Part shown: in pieces, positions 1,852-34,439 of the stretch
Position numbering within the stretch: the stretch's first letter is position 1
How the letters are laid out: each line of letters opens with the position of its first letter
DNA from: Calothrix sp. C42_A2020_038
GTDB taxonomy: Bacteria > Cyanobacteriota > Cyanobacteriia > Cyanobacteriales > Nostocaceae
Assembly: GCA_015272395.1 (NCBI GenBank)
Contig: JACYLQ010000004.1
Span: forward strand, 1 to 40,426
Length of the DNA stretch: 40,426 nucleotides
Reading direction: 5' to 3'
Made by a program: the position numbers and the translations under genes
The notes under the pieces: model-generated
The model's database searches: none
What the model was told of the DNA's origin: nothing
Seen by the model: the letters and a program-made list of their open reading frames with translations, nothing else

Positions 1852-2970
1852 ATGGCTATCATCTCCTCAAGGCAACAGTCACAACCTAACGGTGAACAAC
1901 CAAAGCGACAGCGGAACGCCAAAAAATCAGCGGTGCCACCGAGAGAGAAAGAGAATAATCTTTTGCAACCAGAAGCGGAAGTTGACGAACAAGGCAAGCA
2001 AGAGGAAAGTATTCGTCCACACCGCTTCGATGACTACATTGGTCAAAAAGACTTAAAAGATGTATTAGAAATAGCAATTAAAGCAGCCAAGTCAAGGGGT
2101 GAAGTTCTCGATCATTTGTTACTATATGGCCCCCCAGGACTTGGTAAAACTACAATGGCGATGATACTAGCATCTGAGATGGGTGTCAATTGCAAGATCA
2201 CAAGCGCTCCTGCTCTAGAACGTCCGCGCGATATTGCGGGACTGCTGGTTAATCTAAAACCAGGTGATGTTTTATTCATTGATGAAATTCACCGTCTATC
2301 ACGGATGGCTGAGGAAATTTTATACCCAGCAATGGAAGATTACCGTTTAGATGTCACTGTTGGGAAAGGCACTAGTGCCCGTACTCGTAGCATTCCTTTG
2401 TCCAAATTTACTTTGGTTGGCGCCACAACACGAGTTGGAGCATTAACTTCACCACTTCGTGACAGGTTTGGTTTAGTTCAGAAACTAAAATTTTACGAAC
2501 CAGACGAACTCAGCAAAATTGTTATACGCAGCGCTCAACTGCTTAATACTCCCATCAACGAAGAAGGCGCCGCAGAAGTTGCTCGGCGTGCGCGCGGGAC
2601 ACCACGTATTGCAAATAGATTACTAAAACGTGTGCGTGATTACGCAGAGGTGAAATCATGCGGAGAAATCAATCGACAAGTTGCAGCCGAAGCGCTGGAG
2701 CTATTTCAAGTAGACCCTTGCGGTTTAGATTGGACAGACCGCAAAATGTTGAGTGTAATAATTGAGCAATTTAATGGCGGTCCAGTTGGACTAGAAACCC
2801 TTGCCGCAGCAACAGGTGAAGACACTCAAACAATAGAAGAAGTTTATGAACCTTACCTCATGCAAATTGGTTATCTAAGTCGAACACCGCGCGGGAGAAC
2901 TGCCACGCAAGCAGCATATAAACATATGGGTTTTAAAGCCGCAGCAAACGAGCAATTATCTCTTCTTTAA
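1852..2970 (+). CDS. ruvB: Holliday junction branch migration ATPase RuvB
   Basis: RuvB is the AAA+ motor that, with RuvA, drives branch migration of Holliday junctions during recombination and repair. The 372-residue protein begins with about 50 residues of Gln-, Lys- and Glu-rich low-complexity sequence that the short bacterial forms lack. The core starts at [11 protein letters not shown]. Walker A is GPPGLGKT (93-100), Walker B is LFIDEIH (141-147), sensor 1 is LVGATTR, and an arginine-finger region follows in PLRDRFG. The C-terminal winged helix contains [16 protein letters not shown]. ruvA and ruvC are not adjacent, which is usual in cyanobacteria. A short hairpin repeat follows the stop codon. 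Confidence 0.98.
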
Positions 2971-2983
2971 CTCTGACCTAACC

Positions 2984-3004
2984 CCCTTCCCTTGAAGGGA
3001 AGGG
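2984..3004. repeat. intergenic hairpin repeat after ruvB
   Basis: Arms CCCTTCCC and GGGAAGGG enclose the loop TTGAA, a perfect inverted repeat 14 bases after the ruvB stop. There is no T-run, so it looks more like a cyanobacterial interspersed palindrome than a classic terminator, although it could stop or stabilise the ruvB transcript. Confidence 0.6.
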
Positions 3005-3155
3005 ATAGAATTAAATTCACTGCCCGAAATGACCTGTATGTTGGGGTCTCTCCCTCGTGAAAGGTTTTTAACCCAAGCGTAAAGTACATGGCGCCATCAT
3101 AATTCTTAAACGAAGCGTATAATCTAAAAGCGTCACACACCCCACAGCAAATCAA

Positions 3156-3953
3156 ATGGTTAAGTTAATCACTATAATCTTCAGCTTATTTTTAGTATTT
3201 GGATGGACTCAACCTGCTAAAGCGGAGTCGCATTTAACCCCTGAACAGATACAGTTACGTGACGAATTGGGAAATAAAGCCTTTGCTGCTACGGATAAAG
3301 GTGATTTTGTAACGGCAGAAAAGTATTGGACACAAATGCTAGAACAAGACCCAAGCAACGCAGCAGTTTGGAGTAATCGCGGTAACTCGCGCGTTAGTCA
3401 AAATAAATTGCAAGAAGCTTTGAAGGATTATAACAAAGCAGTTGAACTGGCGCCGAATGCAACTGACCCATATTTAAATCGCGGTACCGCATTGGAAGGT
3501 TTGGGACGTTGGGAAGAAGCAATAGCTGATTATAATCATTTACTTGAGCTTGACCCCAATGATGCAATGGCATACAACAACCGAGGTAACGCTGAAGCAG
3601 GTCTAGGAAAATGGCAAGAAGCTATTGCTGACTATAAAAAATCAGCAGATATTGCACCCAACTTTGCTTTCGCGCGTGCTAACTATGCTCTAGCATTATA
3701 CGAATCTGGTGAGAAAGACGAAGCAATCCACCAAATGAAAAACATTCTTCGCAAGTATCCAAAATTTGCCGACATGCGCGCGTCACTGACAGCAGCACTT
3801 TGGGAAAAAGGTCAACAAGGAGAAGCTGAAAGTAACTGGGTTGCCGCAGTAGGTCTTGACCCCCGCTACAAAGATATAAATTGGGTTAAGAACGTGCGTC
3901 GTTGGGCGCCAAGTATGGTAAGTGCATTAGAGAAATTTCTGAAATTGCAGTAG
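3156..3953 (+). CDS. secreted tetratricopeptide-repeat (TPR) protein
   Basis: The 265-residue product starts with a signal peptide: MVKLITIIFSLFLVFGW, with a likely cut after AKA at about residue 23. It is therefore probably periplasmic or in the thylakoid lumen. Five or so TPR units follow from about residue 36 to 205, with clear consensus repeats such as NRGNSRVSQNKLQEALKDYN, NRGTALEGLGRWEEAIADYN and NRGNAEAGLGKWQEAIADYK. The last 60 residues (NWVAAVGLDPRYKDINWVKN) are a conserved-looking tail. TPR proteins act as scaffolds for protein assembly, and no partner can be named from context. No strong ribosome binding site precedes the ATG. The gene stands alone on the plus strand between hairpin repeats. 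Confidence 0.85.
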   Translation: MVKLITIIFSLFLVFGWTQPAKAESHLTPEQIQLRDELGNKAFAATDKGDFVTAEKYWTQMLEQDPSNAAVWSNRGNSRVSQNKLQEALKDYNKAVELAPNATDPYLNRGTALEGLGRWEEAIADYNHLLELDPNDAMAYNNRGNAEAGLGKWQEAIADYKKSADIAPNFAFARANYALALYESGEKDEAIHQMKNILRKYPKFADMRASLTAALWEKGQQGEAESNWVAAVGLDPRYKDINWVKNVRRWAPSMVSALEKFLKLQ

Positions 3954-4000
3954 TGGTTCGTGTCATCAGTTTTGGTAGTATAAATAATAATGTCTTGTGA

Positions 4001-4020
4001 GTCAGGCAGGTATGCCTGAC
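4001..4020. repeat. hairpin repeat (GTCAGGCA/TGCCTGAC)
   Basis: Eight-base arms GTCAGGCA and TGCCTGAC flank the loop GGTA, downstream of the TPR gene. Related hairpins with AGGCA/TGCCT-like or CACAGG/CCTGTG arms occur at 16930-16951 and 29736-29760, so this is one copy of a dispersed family. Confidence 0.6.
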
Positions 4021-4095
4021 CACTGCACAACAATTCCAAATAATTGTCAACTTAGAAAACTCAAGTATTTTTGCTATAAAGAATAATTATAAATT

Positions 4096-4917
4096 ATGGC
4101 TGATTTAATTCCAAAAATCATCCTTTCTAATGGTATGGAAATATTTTATAAAAATCGAGAGGAGGTTGAGTTTTTATGCAAAGAAATGCCTCTGTACCTC
4201 AAAAATGGCATTGAGCTACATGAAGGCGCCACAGTTTTTGACGTTGGAGCAAACATTGGTTTATTTACATTACATGTAAGTAAATTGTATAATCACAACA
4301 TAAGTATTTACGCTTTTGAACCAGCTCCAGCAATATATAACATTCTTGAACGCAATATCCAGCGTTTGAAATCAGAAAAAATCAAAGTTTTTCCCTATGG
4401 GCTTTCACATACTTCTGGAACTGTAAACTTTGCTTACTATCCTAATTGTACTGGTTGGTCAACTTTATATCCCGATGATTCTCAGTACCAGCGATATTTA
4501 ATCAAAAAGCTTGCTCTTGATAATCTTAACGAGGCACCTGATTTTATTCGCTGGTTACGTTGGCTACCTAATTTTTTACGCGCGTTTATTCTCGACCAAA
4601 AAATCAATAAAGCGTTTCAAGCTACACAAGTAACTTGTCATCTCAAAACGCTGTCAGAAATAATACACGAGCAAAATATTGAACAGATTGATTTAGTGAA
4701 AATAGACGTAGAAAGAAGTGAACTAGATGTGCTGCTAGGTATTGAAGCACAAGATTGGCAAAAAATAAAACAAGTTGTTCTAGAAGTTCATGATTTAAAT
4801 AATCGAGTTACAAAAGTTACAGATTTATTGATGCAAAACGGTTTGAACAAAATTACTATTGAGCAACAAAGTTTTTTGAAAAGTTCCGAGTATTTCAACG
4901 TGTACGCTTTACGGTAG
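4096..4917 (+). CDS. FkbM-family SAM-dependent methyltransferase
   Basis: The 273-residue protein carries the SAM-binding motif VFDVGANIGLFTLH (about 47-60), an acidic second motif (AFEPAP) and the FkbM signature DLVKIDVERSELDVLLGI near residue 200, followed by VVLEVHD. FkbM-family enzymes usually O-methylate sugars or other secondary metabolites, often in glycan biosynthesis, but the substrate cannot be read from this protein. The gene is more AT-rich than its neighbours and has no adjoining polysaccharide genes, so it may have been acquired by transfer. It ends convergently with the CHAD gene. The start ATG is preceded by AT-rich sequence without a clear ribosome binding site. Confidence 0.88.
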   Translation: MADLIPKIILSNGMEIFYKNREEVEFLCKEMPLYLKNGIELHEGATVFDVGANIGLFTLHVSKLYNHNISIYAFEPAPAIYNILERNIQRLKSEKIKVFPYGLSHTSGTVNFAYYPNCTGWSTLYPDDSQYQRYLIKKLALDNLNEAPDFIRWLRWLPNFLRAFILDQKINKAFQATQVTCHLKTLSEIIHEQNIEQIDLVKIDVERSELDVLLGIEAQDWQKIKQVVLEVHDLNNRVTKVTDLLMQNGLNKITIEQQSFLKSSEYFNVYALR

Positions 4918-4939
4918 TGTATAGAGGTAAGGAATATAG

Positions 4940-4959
4940 AGACGTTACATGTAACGTCT
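4940..4959. repeat. 20-bp perfect palindrome (AGACGTTACA/TGTAACGTCT)
   Basis: A perfect 20-bp palindrome 23 bases after the FkbM stop. It shares its outer AGACG/CGTCT arms with palindromes at 22288-22315 and 24541-24568, while the inner bases differ but stay complementary. Confidence 0.8.
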
Positions 4960-5052
4960 TCTAAAAAACTTCTTTCAGGGTAAGCTTTTTGAGCGATTAA
5001 CAACTGGGTGTTACCAGCAGACCTAGCTTTTTTAGTTTCTTTTATCACTGTT

Positions 5053-5068
5053 GGGGGGAAGTCCCCCC
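5053..5068. terminator. G6/C6 hairpin between convergent genes
   Basis: Six G and six C residues flank AAGT, forming a very stable short hairpin between the convergent FkbM and CHAD genes. There is no T-run on either side, so termination is only inferred from its position. Confidence 0.4.
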
Positions 5069-5160
5069 ATGACCCGCTCTACAGAGTGTCGATGTTTATA
5101 CAACCTAACAAAATTAATGACATAAACCACTAGATTTTTACAAATGATTTAGAGCCATAT

Positions 5161-6177
5161 TTAATTGTCCTCCACTTGCAATGATACAGGGTTTAAGATT
5201 GCCAGATGTAGTTGATTGCGTGTTTCAGCTTGCGTATAACGTCTTTGTATCGGCGCCCATTGTTGCCAGAGTTGATGACGTTTATCGACAATTAAACTGG
5301 TAAACGTAGGAAGTTTTTCGGTAAAGTTCTCACCAAACACATCAACTAGCCAATCTTCTAAAACATCACTATCGTGAATCTCCCCTAAAACATCTTGAAT
5401 ATTTTTGATTTCGTTAAGATAATCTCCGTAGGACTCAGCGTAAAAATCAGCAAACAACTCCATTTGATAACGCAGACGTTTAGCTTGTTTTCTTAAACTA
5501 TGGAGAACTTCATGATTACCTGCTAAATTCTGCTCGACTTGTGTATTTGTCATTCCTTTCGGATAACTTCTCAGTAAAGAAGTCATACTCAATGCTGCAC
5601 TGTTGTTAGTTACTACTGGCATTCCAAATTGCCAACCTGGATGTAACAAAAAGTAACTGACTTCGGGTAAAAGCAAATCTGGCAATGCTAAATCGATTTG
5701 AAGCGGCGCCATTTCATGGTAACTTGGTTCTTCCAGCCAATGGTCAAGCGAAGTTTTGAGTGATTTGTAACGCGAATCTTTGAGTGTTGCTTTCACATCT
5801 GTAACAGCTTGCGCGCGCTGCTTATCAATTGCATCGAACACTGTTTGTAAATGCTTCTGCTCTTGAGGTGGCAAAGGAGGCTGAAACTTTTCTACAGTTT
5901 CTTTGAGTACGTCTAAATCCCTTAGATTACCTAAGCGACGAGCAATCTTACCAATATTACGATTTGTAACGGCTTTTGGTAAATTCACAACAAATTCAAA
6001 CCGAGTTACTACTGTACGCAGGCGCCGCATTCCTACTCGCATCTGATGCAATGCTTCTGGGTCTTCATCCTTTTTAACCGTTTTTTCCCACTTCAAAGTT
6101 TTCTTGAAGTGCTTTTGAATTGCTTGATATGCATAGTCTCCTAATGTTCTGACAACAGGTTTTGCTGCTAATGTCAT
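5161..6177 (-). CDS. CHAD domain protein (polyphosphate-binding)
   Basis: CHAD domains are helical, His- and Arg/Lys-rich modules that bind inorganic polyphosphate. Here the 338-residue protein has the two typical repeats. The first contains DPEALHQMRVGMRRLRTVVT (about 42-61) and the second EVLHSLRKQAKRLRYQMELF, followed by YLNEIKNIQDVLGEIHDSDV. The basic residues of the HxxRVxxRRLR and HxLRKxxKRLRY motifs are intact. No triphosphate tunnel (CYTH) domain is attached, unlike in many bacterial ygiF-like proteins. It is a single-gene unit, divergent from the DUF3616 gene across about 470 bases. A role in polyphosphate storage or granules is inferred from the family. Confidence 0.92.
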   Translation of the reverse strand: MTLAAKPVVRTLGDYAYQAIQKHFKKTLKWEKTVKKDEDPEALHQMRVGMRRLRTVVTRFEFVVNLPKAVTNRNIGKIARRLGNLRDLDVLKETVEKFQPPLPPQEQKHLQTVFDAIDKQRAQAVTDVKATLKDSRYKSLKTSLDHWLEEPSYHEMAPLQIDLALPDLLLPEVSYFLLHPGWQFGMPVVTNNSAALSMTSLLRSYPKGMTNTQVEQNLAGNHEVLHSLRKQAKRLRYQMELFADFYAESYGDYLNEIKNIQDVLGEIHDSDVLEDWLVDVFGENFTEKLPTFTSLIVDKRHQLWQQWAPIQRRYTQAETRNQLHLAILNPVSLQVEDN

Positions 6178-26968: not shown

Positions 26969-27202
26969 TTACTTTCCGCTTCCTGGCCCACCACCTTGGA
27001 AACCTTCATAGGTACTGCGACTATAGGTAGAAATCCAAATTCCCCCAGAAGTGTATCGTCCAGATGGGTTTGTTCCTGCGCGCGGTGAATAATTTGGTTG
27101 TTGTTCTTGACGTAGTATCAGTGCGGATGAGTTGGTAATACTGGCATGAATTGCTGAAAACGCAATTAAGACAGTTGCGATGAATAAAATTTTGGTAGTC
27201 AT
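26969..27202 (-). CDS. small secreted Gly/Ser-rich protein
   Basis: A 77-residue protein with an N-terminal signal-like helix (KILFIATVLIAFSAIHASI) and a mature part rich in Gly, Ser, Tyr and Pro (SPRAGTNPSGRYTSGGIWIS, ending GGGPGSGK). It sits between the 327-residue membrane protein and the spermidine-synthase-like gene on the same strand with short gaps (20 and 54 bases), so it is probably part of the same operon. No family recognised. Confidence 0.7.
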   Translation of the reverse strand: MTTKILFIATVLIAFSAIHASITNSSALILRQEQQPNYSPRAGTNPSGRYTSGGIWISTYSRSTYEGFQGGGPGSGK

Positions 27203-28280: not shown

Positions 28281-28389
28281 GGGTGTGTAACGCTACAAAC
28301 AAATTTGAACTCAGAAGTTGAAATAGTTGATTACCATTAGGACATTTATTGTCGTTTATCGTTGAAGTTGTTTGTGTTGTTACGCACCC
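28281..28389. mobile_element. MITE-like inverted repeat next to the rsr fragment
   Basis: GGGTGTGTAAC (28281-28291) and GTTACGCACCC (28379-28389) are inverted copies with one G-T pair. Just inside, ACAAACAA (28295-28302) and TTGTTTGT (28368-28375) are perfect inverses. The whole 109-bp unit can fold into a long hairpin and resembles the GGTGCGTTACG-type repeats of cyanobacteria. It ends four bases before the stop codon of the rsr fragment. Confidence 0.65.
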
Positions 28390-28393
28390 CACA

Positions 28394-28757
28394 TTACAAA
28401 TCTGTTGCTAACATTTGGATAAAACGCGGTGCGCTAGGGTCAAAACCAGCTAAGTCCCACGACATAGAACACTGAGGGTCAACAAGTGAAATATCGTTCG
28501 GCGCCAAAGTTACATATACAGCTTTTGCCTTTGGGTTAACTTTGCGGTGATATTCCGCCAGCGCTTGACTTGGATGTTTACGTCCTGCCCAGCTTTCGCA
28601 GTCTGTCCAAAAACAAATCACATCCGCTTTGAATTGATGTTTAATCATCCAATCATAAGCTACAGATGCATCTGTACCACCGAAGTTATGATCACTTGCT
28701 TTCTTAATTGCTGAACTGAAGGAATCTTTTGCAGTAATACGGAGGTTAATAAATTCT
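28394..28757 (-). pseudogene. rsr: C-terminal fragment of Ro60/Rsr (TROVE-vWA) protein
   Basis: About 120 codons encode the end of a Ro60-type vWA domain: NLRITAKDSFSSAIKK, HNFGGTDASVAYDWMI, VICFWTDCESWAGRKHPSQA, KAVYVTLAPNDISLVDPQ, SWDLAGFDPSAPRF and a normal end. Intact bacterial Rsr proteins have some 500 residues with an N-terminal TROVE ring that binds RNA. Here the TROVE domain and the first MIDAS motif (DxSxS) are missing, while the MIDAS Thr (GGTD) and the Asp of FWTD remain. The frame stays open to a GTG at 28888, but those 43 codons are the tRNA-like RNA, so it is not a natural N-terminus. It is best seen as a truncated gene fused to that RNA. Confidence 0.8.
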
Positions 28758-28761
28758 GTGA

Positions 28762-28888
28762 GGTGGCGGAGCAAGAATTGAACTTGCGACCTCGCGAACT
28801 TAAGTCGATAACCCTCATTCATTCGTCCCGTGAAGGCAATAAAGTCGAACAAGGATATTCGCGCTCTAACCACTGAGCTACCCGCCAC
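28762..28888 (-). ncRNA. tRNA-like RNA with a 59-nt anticodon loop, Y-RNA candidate
   Basis: The minus strand shows a full tRNA body. The acceptor arms are GTGGCGG (28888-28882) and CCGCCAC (28769-28763). The D arm is GCTC-AGTGGTTA-GAGC (28878-28863). The stem in the anticodon position is GCGAA (28862-28858) with TTCGC (28798-28794), and the T arm is GCAAG-TTCAATT-CTTGC (28787-28771). The loop of the anticodon stem is 59 nt (28857-28799) instead of 7 and can form a further 7-10 bp stem. It contains GACGAATG (28827-28820), which fits the GNCGAANG element I recall for bacterial Y RNAs. Y RNAs bind Ro60/Rsr, mimic tRNA and are encoded beside rsr, and this one adjoins an rsr fragment. Confidence 0.7.
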
Positions 28889-29137
28889 GTGAATTTTGGA
28901 TTTGAGATTATGGATTTGAGATTTTCGTGAAATCTATTGCATCCTTATTTAGATTTTGTTTTCTTCATTGTTTGCTCCTCAAGCTGTGTTGTTTGTTATG
29001 AAAATAAAGTAAGCCCTACACCTTCCCCTAAGCTACTTTCACTTTAAAAGCTTATAACCTAGTCACAGCAAATTTTCTAAACCTAGGGGAAACCATTTTC
29101 CTAGGGGTATTCCCCTAACTTTAATCGTTTCGCATTA
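28889..29137. other. leader region with repeats and a possible rsr start relic
   Basis: Next to the tRNA-like RNA the sequence holds two copies of a 14-base TTTGGATTTGAGATT unit (28892-28925). At 28968-28945 on the minus strand an ATG with a good GAGGAG ribosome binding site opens a seven-codon frame (MKKTKSK, then TAA), which may be what is left of the rsr start or a leader peptide. Two CCTAGGGG copies and CCCCTA form a hairpin at 29084-29116, downstream of the DUF2141 gene. Confidence 0.45.
29103..29116 (-). terminator. AGGGG/CCCCT hairpin after the DUF2141 gene
   Basis: AGGGG-TATT-CCCCT forms a tight hairpin 22 bases after the stop codon of the DUF2141 gene (minus strand). An extra CCTAGGGG copy at about 29083-29090 allows an alternative pairing. 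There is no clear T-run. Confidence 0.45.
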
Positions 29138-29614
29138 TCAGCGATTTAAAAAATATTGCAGTTGAATTTGGATATTTGTACTTGCTCCTGCAACTAAAAC
29201 CGCAGACTCGCCAAATTTTGGTGGGCCTGTACGAATCGTTGGGTTGTTAGAAAATCCAAAACCTTCTGTTGGAATACCAAGAAGGTTTCGGTTGAGGACA
29301 CCGTCGTTATTAACATCATGAATAACTGCAATCGCATAGTTACCTGGTTTCAAGTTAGGAAAAGTAATATTTTTAGGTGTTTCAACAATTTTGGTACATT
29401 CTGCTTGCAGCGCGCGCTTACCATCATTAGGAAAACCTCTACTACTAGAAAATACAGTTACACAAACTTGACCTTTCTGACTTTTTAAACCATTAATACT
29501 AATCTTTAAATTACCATTGAAACTGGCGTCTGCTTGATAAGGCAATAGTACCAAATTTGCGATAGTACTTAAAACTAGAATGACTACGTTAAGCTTTAGC
29601 TTCATTAGCTTCAT
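29138..29614 (-). CDS. secreted DUF2141 domain protein
   Basis: A 158-residue exported protein. A signal peptide covers about residues 1-31 (LNVVILVLSTIANLVLLPYQ, cut near ADA-SF). The mature DUF2141 domain shows LKISINGLKSQKGQVCVTVF, NLKPGNYAIAVIHDVNNDGV and LGIPTEGFGFSNNP, which together form the conserved Ig-like/carboxypeptidase-regulatory-type fold of this family. The DVNNDGVL stretch looks like a calcium-binding loop. The ATG four codons later is an equally good start. Function is not established. A single-gene unit. Confidence 0.88.
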   Translation of the reverse strand: MKLMKLKLNVVILVLSTIANLVLLPYQADASFNGNLKISINGLKSQKGQVCVTVFSSSRGFPNDGKRALQAECTKIVETPKNITFPNLKPGNYAIAVIHDVNNDGVLNRNLLGIPTEGFGFSNNPTIRTGPPKFGESAVLVAGASTNIQIQLQYFLNR

Positions 29615-29771: not shown

Positions 29772-31328
29772 CTATCGAACTTTTTTGAGGTGATCAGCTT
29801 GATTTGTGAACATGTCAGTAATTAAGTTAATAACTCTGCGTTCTTCACGAATTTTAATATTAGCAGTTATTGACATACCAGATTGTAAGCCAATTACTCT
29901 GTCTTTGATATTGAGCTTTTGTTTTTCTAAAGCTACTGTAGCGGGGAAACGATAGAATTGATGCGTTTGGTCAGGCGCCAATGCATCGGAACCTATCCAT
30001 GATATATTACCTTTGATTTCTCCAAATTCACTGTAGGGAAATGAATCAACTCGTACATCGACTTTCATTCCTTCTCGAACAAAGCCAATGTCTTTATTGG
30101 TAATATAAATTTCTCCTACGTAATTATCATTGGGCACAATTTTCAGCAATTGCTGTGTAGGACTTGCCACGAAGCCAGCATTTTTAGCTTGCAAGTCAAA
30201 AATTGTTCCAGCAATAGGTGCCCGTACTTCTTGGTATTTGATATTTAACTTTGCTTGAGCTAGTTTGCTATTCGTATCAGCTAAACGCTGCTCATTTTCT
30301 AACAAGATTTTGCTGAATTGACTATCGATTTCAGCAATATTTTTCTTATTATCGGCTATTTTTTCAAGAATATTCTTGTTAGAAACAGCTACAGTATTGG
30401 TGGTTTGCTGGCGCCCTTGTTCCATTTTATATTGGAGACGCTGCTGTTCTTCAAGTAAGGTAGCAATTTCTGCGTTACGACCTTGAACTTTTTGCTGCTG
30501 CTGCAAATATTGAAGTTGAGCAATAGCTCCTTGTTCAGCTAGAGGTTTGAGCTTACTCAAAATACTTTGTTCAATCTGCAAATTCACTCTCGCATCATTG
30601 ATTCTGACTTGATTTTGTGCTAGTTCTTTTCTAACTTGCTCAACTTCTAAACGTGCAGCAGCAGTACGAGTATCGAGTTCCTGCTTTGCAAATTGCAAAC
30701 GCTGCTGCTCATCGTTATCAAGTTGTTGACCCTCACCTGTATTACCTAACTGTTTTCGCAGTAATTGATTTTCAGCCAATAGTGCAGTGCGACTTTTGAG
30801 TAGAAACAAAACTTCGCGAGGTAATCGATTTTGTACCAACTCAATTTTTCCTGGTGCCAGTGAATCAGTAGTAGTTAAACTACGGTAAAGTTGATTTTGC
30901 TGCAATAGACTTGTACGAATCTTTTGCAATGACTCAACTTCGGCTCTAGTTCCAGCAGAATCAAAAGTCAACAGTAAATCGCCTGGTTTGACTTGTTGCC
31001 CATCCTTAACATAAACTTCCTTAACTATTCCACTAAAAGGTGCCTGAATCTCTTTGATAGCGCCTTGGGGTTTTAACTGTCCAACTGCTGGTACAACCTG
31101 CTCAATTTTAGCAACACAAGCCCAAATAATACCAAAACAAGCAACACCCATCAAAGATACCATAATCGCACGCGACCATACAGGAGATTGACGCAATACA
31201 ACTGCTTGGTCAAAGTTGTAATTATTACCTTTTGGATTACCTTTTGAATTACCTTTTGGTGATGATGTTTTTGTCACCATCGGGAAGTCGCGTGCGTCGC
31301 GTATTGAACCGTTTTGTTTAGTTTTCAT
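29772..31328 (-). CDS. HlyD-family secretion adaptor (membrane fusion protein)
   Basis: The 518-residue adaptor links an inner-membrane ABC exporter to an outer-membrane channel. One membrane helix lies at about 52-72 (AIMVSLMGVACFGIIWACVA) after a charged cytosolic N-terminus with repeated KGNxKGNP. The first biotinyl-lipoyl half contains GAIKEIQAPFSGIVKEVYVK and DGQQVKPGDLLLTFDSAGTR. A long alpha-hairpin follows with extended Gln/Leu/Glu heptads (about 130-370). The second lipoyl half contains IKYQEVRAPIAGTIFDLQAK, and a beta-barrel end contains GMSITANIKIREERRVINLI. It follows the exporter gene by 102 bases, so both form one type I secretion operon. The outer-membrane channel is not in the window. 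Confidence 0.93.
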   Translation of the reverse strand: MKTKQNGSIRDARDFPMVTKTSSPKGNSKGNPKGNNYNFDQAVVLRQSPVWSRAIMVSLMGVACFGIIWACVAKIEQVVPAVGQLKPQGAIKEIQAPFSGIVKEVYVKDGQQVKPGDLLLTFDSAGTRAEVESLQKIRTSLLQQNQLYRSLTTTDSLAPGKIELVQNRLPREVLFLLKSRTALLAENQLLRKQLGNTGEGQQLDNDEQQRLQFAKQELDTRTAAARLEVEQVRKELAQNQVRINDARVNLQIEQSILSKLKPLAEQGAIAQLQYLQQQQKVQGRNAEIATLLEEQQRLQYKMEQGRQQTTNTVAVSNKNILEKIADNKKNIAEIDSQFSKILLENEQRLADTNSKLAQAKLNIKYQEVRAPIAGTIFDLQAKNAGFVASPTQQLLKIVPNDNYVGEIYITNKDIGFVREGMKVDVRVDSFPYSEFGEIKGNISWIGSDALAPDQTHQFYRFPATVALEKQKLNIKDRVIGLQSGMSITANIKIREERRVINLITDMFTNQADHLKKVR

Positions 31329-31430
31329 ATGTACAAATAATTACTCTTTTTCTCTTGCTTGACGTTATGCAGCATCCCTTCGCTCAAGGGCAACACGAGT
31401 GTAGTTCGTTATATATAGTGATATAAATAC

Positions 31431-34400
31431 TTAACCCGCCCCTACTTGTTGTTGGTTATAGAGATAATAATAATTACCTTTTTTCGCGATTAATTCTTCG
31501 TGATTTCCATATTCAGCCACCCTTCCTGCTTCCATTACGAGTATGGTATCAGCGTTGCGGACAGTATTAAGCCTGTGGGTAATAAAAAAGACTGTTGTAC
31601 CTTTGAAGGCATTGGCTAAATTCAGACAAACTTGACGTTCAGTAGGATAGTCAAGGGCGCTAGTTGCTTCGTCCATAACCAAAAGCTTGGGCTTTTGTAA
31701 AACAGAACGCGCGATAGCTATACGCTGTCTTTGTCCCCCGGATAGTGCGGCGCCTCTTTCGCCAACACGGGTATTATAACCATTGGGTAAACTCATAATG
31801 AAATCATGGGCAACTGCTATTTTCGCAGCTTCGATGATTTCTTCGGTAGTTGCATCTGGATTGGTTAAAGCTATATTTTCTTGGATAGTACCGTCAAATA
31901 GTAATGTATCTTGAGGAACTACACCTATCTGGCGCCGTAGCGAGTAAAGTTCAACCTTAGATACATCGTAACCGTCAATTAATATCCTACCGGCTTCTGG
32001 TTCATATAGACGAATAAGTAATTTTGTCAGCGTACTTTTTCCGGCGCCACTTTGCCCAACGATACCGACAAATTGACCTGCTGGAAATTCAATACTGACG
32101 TTATTTAGCTGGAGTGCGGTACCTTGATTAAATCGAAACGAAACGTTTTCATATTTAACTGTACCTCGAATTGCTGGCAAAGGAATATTATCTCTGTCTT
32201 GTTCTGCTTCTTGAGGTGTATCAACAATATCGCTAAGACGCTCTAAAGATAATGCAACTTCTTGGAAACTTTGCCACAGTTGTGCAAGACGCAATATGGG
32301 ACTAGTTACGTAACTGGAGATGATTCTAAAAGCAATTAATTCACCCAGTGTTAACTCACCTTGAAGAACCAAATAGGCACCCGCCCACAATACCATTAAA
32401 GCACTCAACTTGTTGAGAAAGTTACTAGTTGAACTAGCAAGAGTAGATGTGATAACAGTTTGAAAACCTGCACCAACAAATCGTGCGTATTTTTCCTGCC
32501 AAGTAAACCGCGAATGTAACTCGATATTTTGTGCTTTTACGGTTTGAATACCTGACATTACCTCCACTAGATACGACTGTGTTTCAGCATTGCGTTCTGC
32601 TTTCGCTCGCAGTTGACGGCTAATGAGAGGAGACGCAACAATAGTCAATATAATAAATATGGGAATAGTACCTAATCCCACTAAAGTCAATTGCCAGCTA
32701 TAAAACAGCATGACAATGATGTAAACTACTGAAAAGATTGCATCCAAGCCTACAGTTAACGCAGTACCAGTAAGGAACTGACGTATATTTTCTAACTCAT
32801 TGATACGGGTCGAAAGTTCACCGACAGGTCGCTTTTCAAAATAACGCAGTGGCAACCGTAACAAGTGGTCAATAATTTGTGACCCTAAACCCATATCAAT
32901 ACGGTTGGTCGTATCAACGAATAAATACGTTCTGAGTGTAGTTAATATTGATTCAAATAAACCTATAAATAGTAACAGAGTACCTAAAATATGTAGTGTA
33001 CCTATACTATTTTGAGTAATTACCTTATCAATAATTAGTTGGATAACAAGTGGGTTAGCGAGTGCGGCTAACTGAACAAAGAATGAAGCGACAAAAACTT
33101 CGGTTAATACACGCTTGTGCTTTGCTAAATAAGGTACAAACCAACTCAAACCAAAGCGTTGTTGAGGTGTTTCTTTGGTGGTAGAAATTAATAATACCCG
33201 AACTTGTGGTGGGTAGCTACTTTCTTCGACTTCTAATTTATTGATAAACTCGCTTGGCTTAAAGCGTTTAATACCTTGTGATGGTATACCTGCAACTATA
33301 TGACGTTCGCTGGCTTCGTATAAAACCACATAACTTTCACCATAGCGAACTAAAGCAGGAGTGGGAATACGGGTTACAGATGTAGCAGGTATATCGACAA
33401 GTTGGGGTTTGAGTCCAATCAACTGTGCCATGTACGCGCACATCTGAAATGATACTGTACCCTGGCGCCGAACTTGTTCATTTAAGACTCGACGTACAAC
33501 TTCTTTGCGAAAAGGTATAGACAAATGCTTGGAAAGCATTTGGAAACAAGCATAAATACTGTTGATTTCACCTTTACCACCAAAAAAAGGATACTTTTGA
33601 TTATTTGCGACATTTACTGGTGGTAATATTTCTTCTTCGGATGCATAAGGTATATCAACTTCTATCTTGTCTTTATCCTGTTCTATGATAGATAAGTTAG
33701 AGGGAGTTATAACAGGTTGCGGTTGCTCGTCAAGAAAATCTAAATCTTCTGAAAGCAAACCAATTAAACGAACTTTTGTATTACCTTGTATTTTTATCTT
33801 ATTATTAGAAGCATTGAGCAATTCCAGACGAGTCCCAGCAGAATAATTATCAACGTTGCCAGCACTGCTAACAAACCAGTTCAAATTACTGTCAAGTTGC
33901 TGAAGCTGAATATTCGATGAAGGGTAAAAAACGCGCGCTTGATTGTAAACCTGTTCAGTCAGTTCTTTAAGATTAATGTTACCATTCGCTTGAATTTGTG
34001 GTTGTGCAGCGAGAATATCAAAAACCTCTGCGATGTAACATTGATTTTGTACTGCCTGAGCGAAAGCAGGATACATCGTTAACAAATGCGAATACTCACT
34101 CAAAGAAAAAGTCAAACATGTTACTTCGCTTGAAGCAATCACAGTTTCACAAGCAACCGAACGTAATGTATTAACAGCGCCAATTACAGACCCTTTTTCG
34201 AGTAACTTCAGGGTAATAGGCATTTGTGTACGGGAGTCATACCCAAGTAATCTGGCTTTACCTTCGTAAATAATTGCGATACTGTTAGTAACACGGTCTT
34301 TCGCAATTATTTTTTGTCCAATTCGATAACGTAAAGGTTGAATCTGTTCAGCAAGGCGTGTAATTACCTCTGGTGGTAATACATTAAAACCATCAAGGTT

Positions 34401-34439
34401 AGTCAGAAATTCTCTGAACGAGCTTTTAATATAAGTCAT
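31431..34439 (-). CDS. ABC exporter with cNMP-binding and degenerate C39 peptidase-like domains
   Basis: A 1002-residue exporter of the bacteriocin/type I kind. Residues about 10-135 resemble a cyclic-nucleotide-binding fold (YRIGQKIIAKDRVTNSIAII). About 285-420 are C39 peptidase-like: SIYACFQMLSKHLSIPFRKE holds a possible active-site Cys, but the later HF/HY-type histidine is replaced (GESYVVLYE), so it looks inactive and may only bind cargo. Six membrane helices span about 440-720. The ATPase has Walker A GQSGAGKST, signature LSGGQRQRI and Walker B LLVMDEATSALD. The layout resembles HetC and related cyanobacterial exporters. The HlyD gene follows; no leader-peptide substrate is evident nearby. 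Confidence 0.92.
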   Translation of the reverse strand: MTYIKSSFREFLTNLDGFNVLPPEVITRLAEQIQPLRYRIGQKIIAKDRVTNSIAIIYEGKARLLGYDSRTQMPITLKLLEKGSVIGAVNTLRSVACETVIASSEVTCLTFSLSEYSHLLTMYPAFAQAVQNQCYIAEVFDILAAQPQIQANGNINLKELTEQVYNQARVFYPSSNIQLQQLDSNLNWFVSSAGNVDNYSAGTRLELLNASNNKIKIQGNTKVRLIGLLSEDLDFLDEQPQPVITPSNLSIIEQDKDKIEVDIPYASEEEILPPVNVANNQKYPFFGGKGEINSIYACFQMLSKHLSIPFRKEVVRRVLNEQVRRQGTVSFQMCAYMAQLIGLKPQLVDIPATSVTRIPTPALVRYGESYVVLYEASERHIVAGIPSQGIKRFKPSEFINKLEVEESSYPPQVRVLLISTTKETPQQRFGLSWFVPYLAKHKRVLTEVFVASFFVQLAALANPLVIQLIIDKVITQNSIGTLHILGTLLLFIGLFESILTTLRTYLFVDTTNRIDMGLGSQIIDHLLRLPLRYFEKRPVGELSTRINELENIRQFLTGTALTVGLDAIFSVVYIIVMLFYSWQLTLVGLGTIPIFIILTIVASPLISRQLRAKAERNAETQSYLVEVMSGIQTVKAQNIELHSRFTWQEKYARFVGAGFQTVITSTLASSTSNFLNKLSALMVLWAGAYLVLQGELTLGELIAFRIISSYVTSPILRLAQLWQSFQEVALSLERLSDIVDTPQEAEQDRDNIPLPAIRGTVKYENVSFRFNQGTALQLNNVSIEFPAGQFVGIVGQSGAGKSTLTKLLIRLYEPEAGRILIDGYDVSKVELYSLRRQIGVVPQDTLLFDGTIQENIALTNPDATTEEIIEAAKIAVAHDFIMSLPNGYNTRVGERGAALSGGQRQRIAIARSVLQKPKLLVMDEATSALDYPTERQVCLNLANAFKGTTVFFITHRLNTVRNADTILVMEAGRVAEYGNHEELIAKKGNYYYLYNQQQVGAG

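Follow-up and report, generated by a model that had tools for sequence, protein, structure and literature searches.

A tRNA-shaped unit in the window

The window, by which we mean the whole stretch of 40,426 nt analysed here (contig JACYLQ010000004.1 of Calothrix sp. C42_A2020_038), carries on its minus strand, at 28763-28888, an RNA unit in which a whole tRNA body bears a Ro-type arm. This assignment is based on the match to the Rfam tRNA family RF00005, on the score of our own model R1 and on 76% identity to a unit that precedes an intact rsr gene. Read from 28888 to 28763, the tRNA body consists of an 8-bp acceptor stem, a D arm and a T arm. The 5' strand of the acceptor, GTGGCGGG (28881-28888), pairs with the 3' strand at 28763-28770, which was placed by the alignment of 68 units and is without an encoded CCA; all eight pairs covary among the 68 units. 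The D arm (28863-28878) and the T arm (28771-28787) were assigned from the same alignment and from RF00005, which matches 28887-28763 on the minus strand with 40.7 bits (E 2.3e-5), above the family cut-off of 29 bits, and spans the large insert described below. This match bears out the original prediction, made from the sequence alone, that the acceptor, D and T arms are intact.

The anticodon arm is not that of a tRNA. There is no continuous 5-bp stem leading to a 7-nt decoding loop; a 52-nt insert (28808-28859), identified by its match to the insert-core model R2, separates tRNA position 28 from position 29. According to the supported pairing, the outer anticodon stem, positions 27-28 (28860-28861), pairs with 28793-28794 as 27:43 and 28:42; the insert follows, and positions 29-31 then pair with 39-41 to close the loop CTTAAGT (28804-28798), giving the anticodon-like hairpin CGA-CTTAAGT-TCG (28795-28807). 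The stem GCGAA/TTCGC, which had been proposed to close a 59-nt anticodon loop, is an alternative pairing without support from relatives. The related claim that no usable anticodon exists has to be divided: an anticodon hairpin with a 7-nt loop is present, but it is probably not a decoding one. Within the insert, TTGCC (28839-28835) pairs with GGGACGAATG (28829-28820) to form a Ro60-type helix (28820-28839), a conserved covarying hairpin in the relatives and a candidate binding site. The predicted element GACGAATG is present in the RNA. R2 matches 28805-28855 with 46.4 bits (E 1.3e-8), the window row being within the R2 training set. The idea that a whole tRNA beside rsr has a Y-RNA-like element built into it stands as to the embedding but not as to the site, which is the anticodon stem and not the loop.

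The checks by known RNA models, which had been suggested with the prediction, gave a divided result: RF00005 was positive as above, and the Y RNA families had no match in the window region up to E 10. The intron families likewise had no match in window positions 28300-29200 up to E 10, and a DNA search of the window unit against plasmids gave none. ARAGORN called a tRNA neither for the window unit nor for the units at a second locus of the same genome (L013). R1 scores the window unit, which is one of its 68 training rows, at 109.8 bits and an ordinary tRNA-Asn in the window at 52.9 bits. Taken alone, the window unit is not significantly more stable than its shuffles (folding z -1.63; 14 of 200 shuffles as stable), which counts against the Y RNA reading. 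That the window RNA is more than chance is indicated by the 76%-identical unit before an intact rsr and by the strong covariation among the 68 aligned units. Immediately upstream of the unit (28890-28925) is a short repeat of the AATCTCAAATCCA type, and 13 other places in the genome match solely that stretch.

A remnant of rsr, the Ro60 orthologue, begins a few bases past the 3' end of the RNA, as had been predicted. It lies on the minus strand at 28394-28759 and comprises 121 residues of the vWA domain; the similarity to PF25045 (Ro60 vWA domain) starts from about 28759 and covers profile positions 49-163 of 165 (E 1.1e-22). Compared with the intact rsr of 534 residues at L013, which is preceded by two tandem units, it is without roughly the first 410 residues. 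A sequence search of the assembly found the 76%-identical relative (E 4e-17) on this other contig. Since an intact rsr with tandem units is present elsewhere in the genome, the window looks like a second, decayed Y-rsr locus. The window copy by itself might be a dead relic of a duplicated Y-rsr locus that is no longer expressed, and with an RNA abutting so truncated a gene we regard this as a real possibility, though somewhat less than an even one; on the other side, the window RNA retains all arms and, in the R1 alignment, nearly all model pairs. A DNA search of the array at the intact locus against phages gave no match. Elsewhere in the window, two adjacent minus-strand ORFs (29772-34439) read as an HlyD-type fusion protein and a peptidase-containing ABC exporter, and a small ORF at 26969-27202 ends in GGGPGSGK.

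Distribution of the units and linkage to rsr

The distribution of the insert was compared with that of rsr in two genome sets. In the order, 58 of 243 genomes have the Ro60 vWA family, 58 the R2 insert and 56 both; the insert occurs in 2 of the 185 genomes without rsr (G084, G128), and the 2 rsr genomes without it (G042, G160) both have partial vWA matches. Among 291 genomes of the class, which are partly the same genomes, 58 have rsr, 55 the insert and 52 both, leaving 6 rsr-only and 3 insert-only genomes, so that the insert is present in 3 of 233 genomes without rsr. Because R2 was trained partly on genomes of the order, its sensitivity there was helped, whereas the low rate in rsr-free genomes was not. 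R2 models the insert core, and permuted inserts (see below) lie outside it; two of the six rsr-only class genomes were opened, and one has two units (G266) and the other at least one unit with a permuted insert (G280).

Whole units were then counted at the rsr loci themselves. R1 matches of at least 100 nt are present at 54 of the 58 rsr loci of the order; of the 223 matches with E no higher than 1e-4, a few are ordinary tRNAs. Three of the four loci without such a unit have rsr near or over a contig end (L047, L049, L089), and the insert hits belonging to the fourth (L065) are on another contig. Outside the order, 18 loci picked from 48 rsr genomes (16 with and 2 without an R2 hit) all gave R1 matches of at least 100 nt. 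The same arrangement thus occurs upstream of intact rsr genes in relatives, where the original prediction had counted an absence of homologues near rsr as evidence against itself, and the form that it had called unusual is the ordinary one at the rsr loci of the order. Named organisms with units include Dulcicalothrix desertica PCC 7102, Calothrix sp. PCC 7716, Nostoc strains, Chlorogloeopsis fritschii PCC 6912 (locus L145) and Prochloron didemni.

A pattern scanner of our own found 139 units in 49 of the 58 loci, at least two units in 39 of these 49 and at most 11; it missed nine loci, in five of which R1 found units. The acceptor end lies 35-42 nt upstream of the rsr start in 20 of the 49 loci. 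Matches to the core pattern number 158 upstream of rsr and 23 downstream. One insert core (G169:C3:861365-861415) was observed about 3.2 Mb from the rsr of its genome, so copies can occur away from rsr. This distant core and the insert hits in genomes without rsr (two in the order, three in the class) count against the Y RNA reading. The first ORF after rsr, examined in 7 cyanobacterial loci (8 extracted), had no gene in common. Location beside rsr and co-occurrence with it are what is expected of the genes of Y RNAs.

Covariation and the acceptor stem

The 68 aligned units share a structure of 33 pairs, in which 95.8% of the cells are paired and 26 pairs have changed on both sides. The double-changed cells number 349, compared with a shuffle mean of 95.8, and sliding the partner columns by 1 to 3 positions about halved the pairing. 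The outer anticodon pairs 27:43 and 28:42 covary with 18 and 19 double-changed cells, respectively, and the inner pair 31:39 with 30, while positions 29-30 are a nearly invariant CG. Positions 15 and 48, which form a tertiary contact in tRNA, are GC in 45 and AT in 16 of the 68 units. This covariation, the covarying tertiary pair of the tRNA and the copy on a viral contig described below support the view that the units are structured RNAs.

Since the scanner demanded at least 6 of 7 acceptor pairs (besides T8, GG in the D loop and TTC in the T loop), its own acceptor counts, 113 of 116 perfect within units and 16 of 58 between units, are biased. A second set was drawn from 80 named loci, some of them from the same genomes as in the other locus set, where acceptor pairing was not required; 305 cores, less 72 without a T arm and 55 without a D arm, left 178 units. 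All seven acceptor pairs are formed in 164 of these 178 units, and a G-C eighth pair is present in 144. For neighbouring units that differ, the acceptor is perfect within its own unit in 81 of 91 cases and with the neighbour in 11 of 91. An acceptor strand taken from another locus, however, pairs perfectly in 65 of the 178, because acceptors are alike across loci, and this counts against the Y RNA reading.

Among the 139 scanner units, 110 have an 8-bp acceptor and 29 a 7-bp one. CCA follows directly after one further base in 52 (42 of the 110 and 10 of the 29) and stands next to the eighth pair in 10 more of the 8-bp units; it is absent in both registers in 77, a further point against the Y RNA reading. 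By eye, tRNA-Leu-like bodies with a long variable arm were seen in some units of L054, L055, L072 and L090, and a tRNA-Glu-like D arm in some units of L067, L068, L086 and L087. The unit bodies look as if several kinds of tRNA had been captured.

The insert and its Ro-type helix

The core of the insert reads approximately CCTTnTTCA..CTTGCC-loop-GGCCGAAGAAT.GAGGGTTATCG. Its helix, TTGCC/GGC-C-GA, matches as a motif the animal Y RNA site in having a bulged base, the Ro60 site of animal Y RNAs being given as GGUCCGA with a bulged base (PMC11277228). The bulged Ro60-binding helix of a Y RNA is thus present as far as sequence and covariation can tell.

A minority of the units have a circularly permuted insert, in which CCTT forms the last strand, with the anticodon-like hairpin at the far end of the insert. 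The scanner found 11 of these, and a hand count over more loci gave about 21 (L060, L062, L067, L071, L075, L080, L082, L084, L086, L091, L094, L096, L195-L197, L199, L200, L204 and L208-L210), omitting normal units that the pattern picked up in L056, L077, L079 and L099.

The anticodon-like hairpin

A 3-bp stem with a 7-nt loop directly follows the insert in 55 of 125 distinct normal-type units, a proportion that counts against the Y RNA reading. Control frames shifted by 1 to 3 bases gave 0 to 27 such hairpins over the same 125 units, the figure of 27 coming from the two-base shift. U33 is present in 54 and a purine at position 37 in 52 of the 55 hairpins, while positions 34-36 are variable. 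Twelve permuted units with a 7-nt loop, counted by hand, have U33 in all 12 and a purine at 37 in 11. In the permuted units this loop is remote from the tRNA body and is still retained, which suggests selection on the loop itself.

These hairpins raise the question of whether the units are working tRNAs that bear an intron, the insert being cut out and the halves joined, for example by RtcB, to yield a decoding tRNA. When the insert was removed, ARAGORN called a tRNA in 84 of 129 cases, and some of the loops are identical to standard anticodon loops. The anticodon positions, however, vary freely, with A34 in 10 of the 55 hairpins, and 35 of the 125 normal-type units have no 3-bp hairpin at any loop size tried, and others have loops of 5, 6, 8, 9 or 10 nt; the free anticodon, the A34 and the 35 units without a stem all argue against spliced, decoding tRNAs. 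Moreover, the distribution of the insert tracks rsr and not a need for tRNA, and in the permuted units, where the loop lies away from the tRNA body, removal of the insert would not rebuild a tRNA. We therefore consider intron-bearing tRNAs very improbable and return to a Y RNA carrying an anticodon-like loop. The conserved U33 and purine at 37 suggest that this RNA may also meet enzymes of the anticodon loop, perhaps as a decoy for anticodon nucleases. The YrlA RNA of Salmonella has been suggested to compete for an anticodon nuclease, though it is not cut by it, according to PMC7790460, and the whole-tRNA units, with their anticodon-like loop, would be better suited to this. Even so, a decoy role appears doubtful to us.

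Leaders of rsr, viral loci and published expression

Directly before the rsr start, 45 of the 56 loci with enough leader (43 of 56 with an earlier pattern) have a near copy of the Ro site, TTGCC-loop-GGC(C/T)GGAG, which covers the ribosome-binding site. At the intact locus of the same genome, this leader hairpin lies at L013 3335-3361, and the same hairpin is found in most rsr leaders examined. With the named loci added, it is present in 114 of 135 windows, whereas 50 shuffles gave 9.6 on average and at most 16; 8 of the 135 windows were misplaced, 7 of them scored as misses and 1 as a hit. On inspection by eye, ten further misses resemble this hairpin with A as the bulged base, and L056, L077, L085 and L097 are without it. 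A Ro-type hairpin in this position suggests that Rsr limits its own translation.

It may be asked whether the units, too, are only a cis-acting rsr leader, that is, a tRNA-like control element within the mRNA and not free RNAs. They do lie just before rsr on the same strand, and a related hairpin occurs in the leaders. Such a role is nevertheless hard to reconcile with arrays of up to 11 scanner-found units, with the units that come after rsr, with the unit far from rsr in G169 and with a window copy that is present without a working rsr, and we think it highly unlikely. Free, Rsr-linked Y RNAs remain the preferred reading.

Units are not confined to cellular genomes. The 104-kb IMG/VR contig IMGVR_UViG_3300018954_000017 (L180) carries an rsr gene (62% identity) directly preceded by three whole-tRNA units, which R1 scores at 90.0, 89.6 and 77.8 bits. 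An RNA ligase gene (phrog_968, E 1.2e-97; PF09414) lies upstream of the units, and the stretch from ligase through units to rsr occupies 2245-5590. On two other viral contigs, an apparent free-standing Y RNA was seen by eye before rsr, at about 3845-3915 of L181 and about 3910-3980 of L182; its open ends seem to carry the Ro helix, and it has the same stretch GGTTATC.

Two published data sets mention cyanobacterial TROVE genes. Erythromycin treatment of Chlorogloeopsis fritschii PCC 9212 was followed by a sharp rise in the mRNA of a TROVE gene, whose cause the authors call unknown (PMC6424891); the analysis there, of the RNA-seq set GEO GSE123329, had discarded reads mapping to tRNAs. In a cyanobacterial coculture under far-red light, the most strongly induced genes included one for a TROVE protein (log2 fold change 4.5) and one for RtcB (3.5) (PMC11423583). 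These inductions, of genes that may be the ones behind an array, fit a role of cyanobacterial Rsr in RNA repair.

Proposed function and meaning

Comparison among the relatives shows a predicted fold of a whole tRNA whose open acceptor has 7 or 8 bp and whose tertiary pair covaries, a bulged Ro-type helix, an anticodon-like hairpin, genes that lie beside rsr and occur together with it, and tandem arrays. We consider it highly probable that the units are Rsr-linked Y RNAs of this shape. The best overall explanation is very likely that they represent a cyanobacterial Y RNA, partner of Rsr, which is built as a complete, non-permuted tRNA with a Ro60-binding hairpin on the anticodon stem, forming a three-way junction.

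A possible course of events can be outlined. The array and rsr would share a transcript from which RNase P and RNase Z would cut out the units, and CCA would be added to the cut units; processing by tRNA enzymes is in our judgement probable. Rsr would hold the GGCCGA/TTGCC helix in the extra arm. The tRNA body might then serve as a handle that brings a tRNA-binding or RNA-degrading partner to Rsr, or that keeps such a partner off; in Deinococcus, PNPase is the partner tied to Rsr. By binding the look-alike hairpin over its own ribosome-binding site, Rsr could limit its own synthesis, an autoregulation to which we give an even chance. The window copy would be the second locus, with a decayed rsr; its RNA, which is predicted still to fold, could serve the distant Rsr.

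Several consequences follow from such an RNA. The tRNA mimicry of bacterial Y RNAs is known, but from a permuted form; an RNA that keeps the whole tRNA and adds an arm to it offers a direct route between tRNA and Y RNA. The whole-tRNA form predicts that such RNAs are produced by tRNA enzymes, and the many natural variants per locus would allow the purpose of the tRNA part to be studied. Through the anticodon loop, the viral RNA ligase cassette and the published joint rise of TROVE and RtcB, a connection of Ro60 with tRNA damage becomes testable, and the copy in the rsr leader predicts a simple feedback loop. A more far-reaching view is that cyanobacteria and at least one phage run Ro60 on whole-tRNA RNAs that are CCA-tailed and perhaps aminoacylated, bear Rsr at a three-way junction and present their anticodon loops as bait for enzymes that cut anticodons, and that permuted YrlA arose from tandem arrays, or gave rise to them, by a cut in the Ro loop and closure of the acceptor, which would connect tRNA with Y RNA. 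We offer this as a speculation that is rather unlikely to hold as a whole.

Comparison with YrlA and other known systems

Bacterial YrlA is described as a circularly permuted tRNA (PMC11472068, PMC8394870). The consensus of RF02553 has the T arm before the D arm, with Ro-type strands flanking them. This family is YrlA (Y RNA-like A), with 6CU1 as its Salmonella structure. Nothing in the Calothrix genome exceeds its cut-off of 69 bits, and the matches in the array of that genome (17.4 and 16.1 bits) are below a match elsewhere in it (21.3 bits). Across the gap between units, however, RF02553 matches at full length in 4 of 7 other arrays (L055, 40.5 bits, E 1.7e-5; L060, 32.0; L094, 31.7; L083, 31.4), all below 69 bits. 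Such scores need care, because the scan also gave unrelated sub-threshold matches (such as Plastid-ycf2, 35.2 bits opposite the tRNA arms). The between-unit matches nevertheless indicate the same circular order of elements, with YrlA and the whole-tRNA units cut at different points.

These matches would allow the arrays to be processed between the units into ordinary permuted YrlA RNAs, each running from one Ro loop to the next. Besides the low scores, such processing is opposed by the pairing of the acceptor strands within units, by the 10 of 49 loci in which the scanner found a single unit and by spacers of 15-299 nt, which would fall in the acceptor loop; we consider it very improbable. As unpermuted RNAs, the units share with YrlA the tRNA-like D and T arms, an acceptor-like stem, the Ro-type strands, a gene beside rsr and the same circular order, as judged from the consensus. 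YrlA differs in being permuted, with the T arm before the D arm and its acceptor closed, in ending at the Ro stem and in having no free CCA end, whereas the units have an open acceptor that pairs within each unit; a small loop caps their Ro hairpin, and they retain an anticodon-like hairpin. We infer from this comparison that one of the two forms was derived from the other through tandem copies. Our literature search by title and abstract found no paper describing tRNA-shaped cyanobacterial Y RNAs; its scope did not take in the survey of Chen et al. 2014, who reportedly recorded Y RNAs near Ro60 in more than 250 species.

The Y RNAs of animals and Deinococcus share with the units a bulged Ro60 helix of GGUCCGA type, and in Deinococcus, too, the gene adjoins rsr; unlike the units, they have the Ro helix at the ends of the RNA itself and no whole tRNA body. 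tmRNA, too, is a longer RNA with a tRNA-shaped head, but the units have no mRNA part or tag, both their D and T arms are standard, and their matches to tmRNA are weak and sub-threshold. The laboratory tRNA scaffold, in which a foreign RNA is placed in the anticodon arm of a tRNA, has in common with the units an added RNA in that arm; the units, however, are natural, their insert lies in the stem, and an anticodon-like loop survives.
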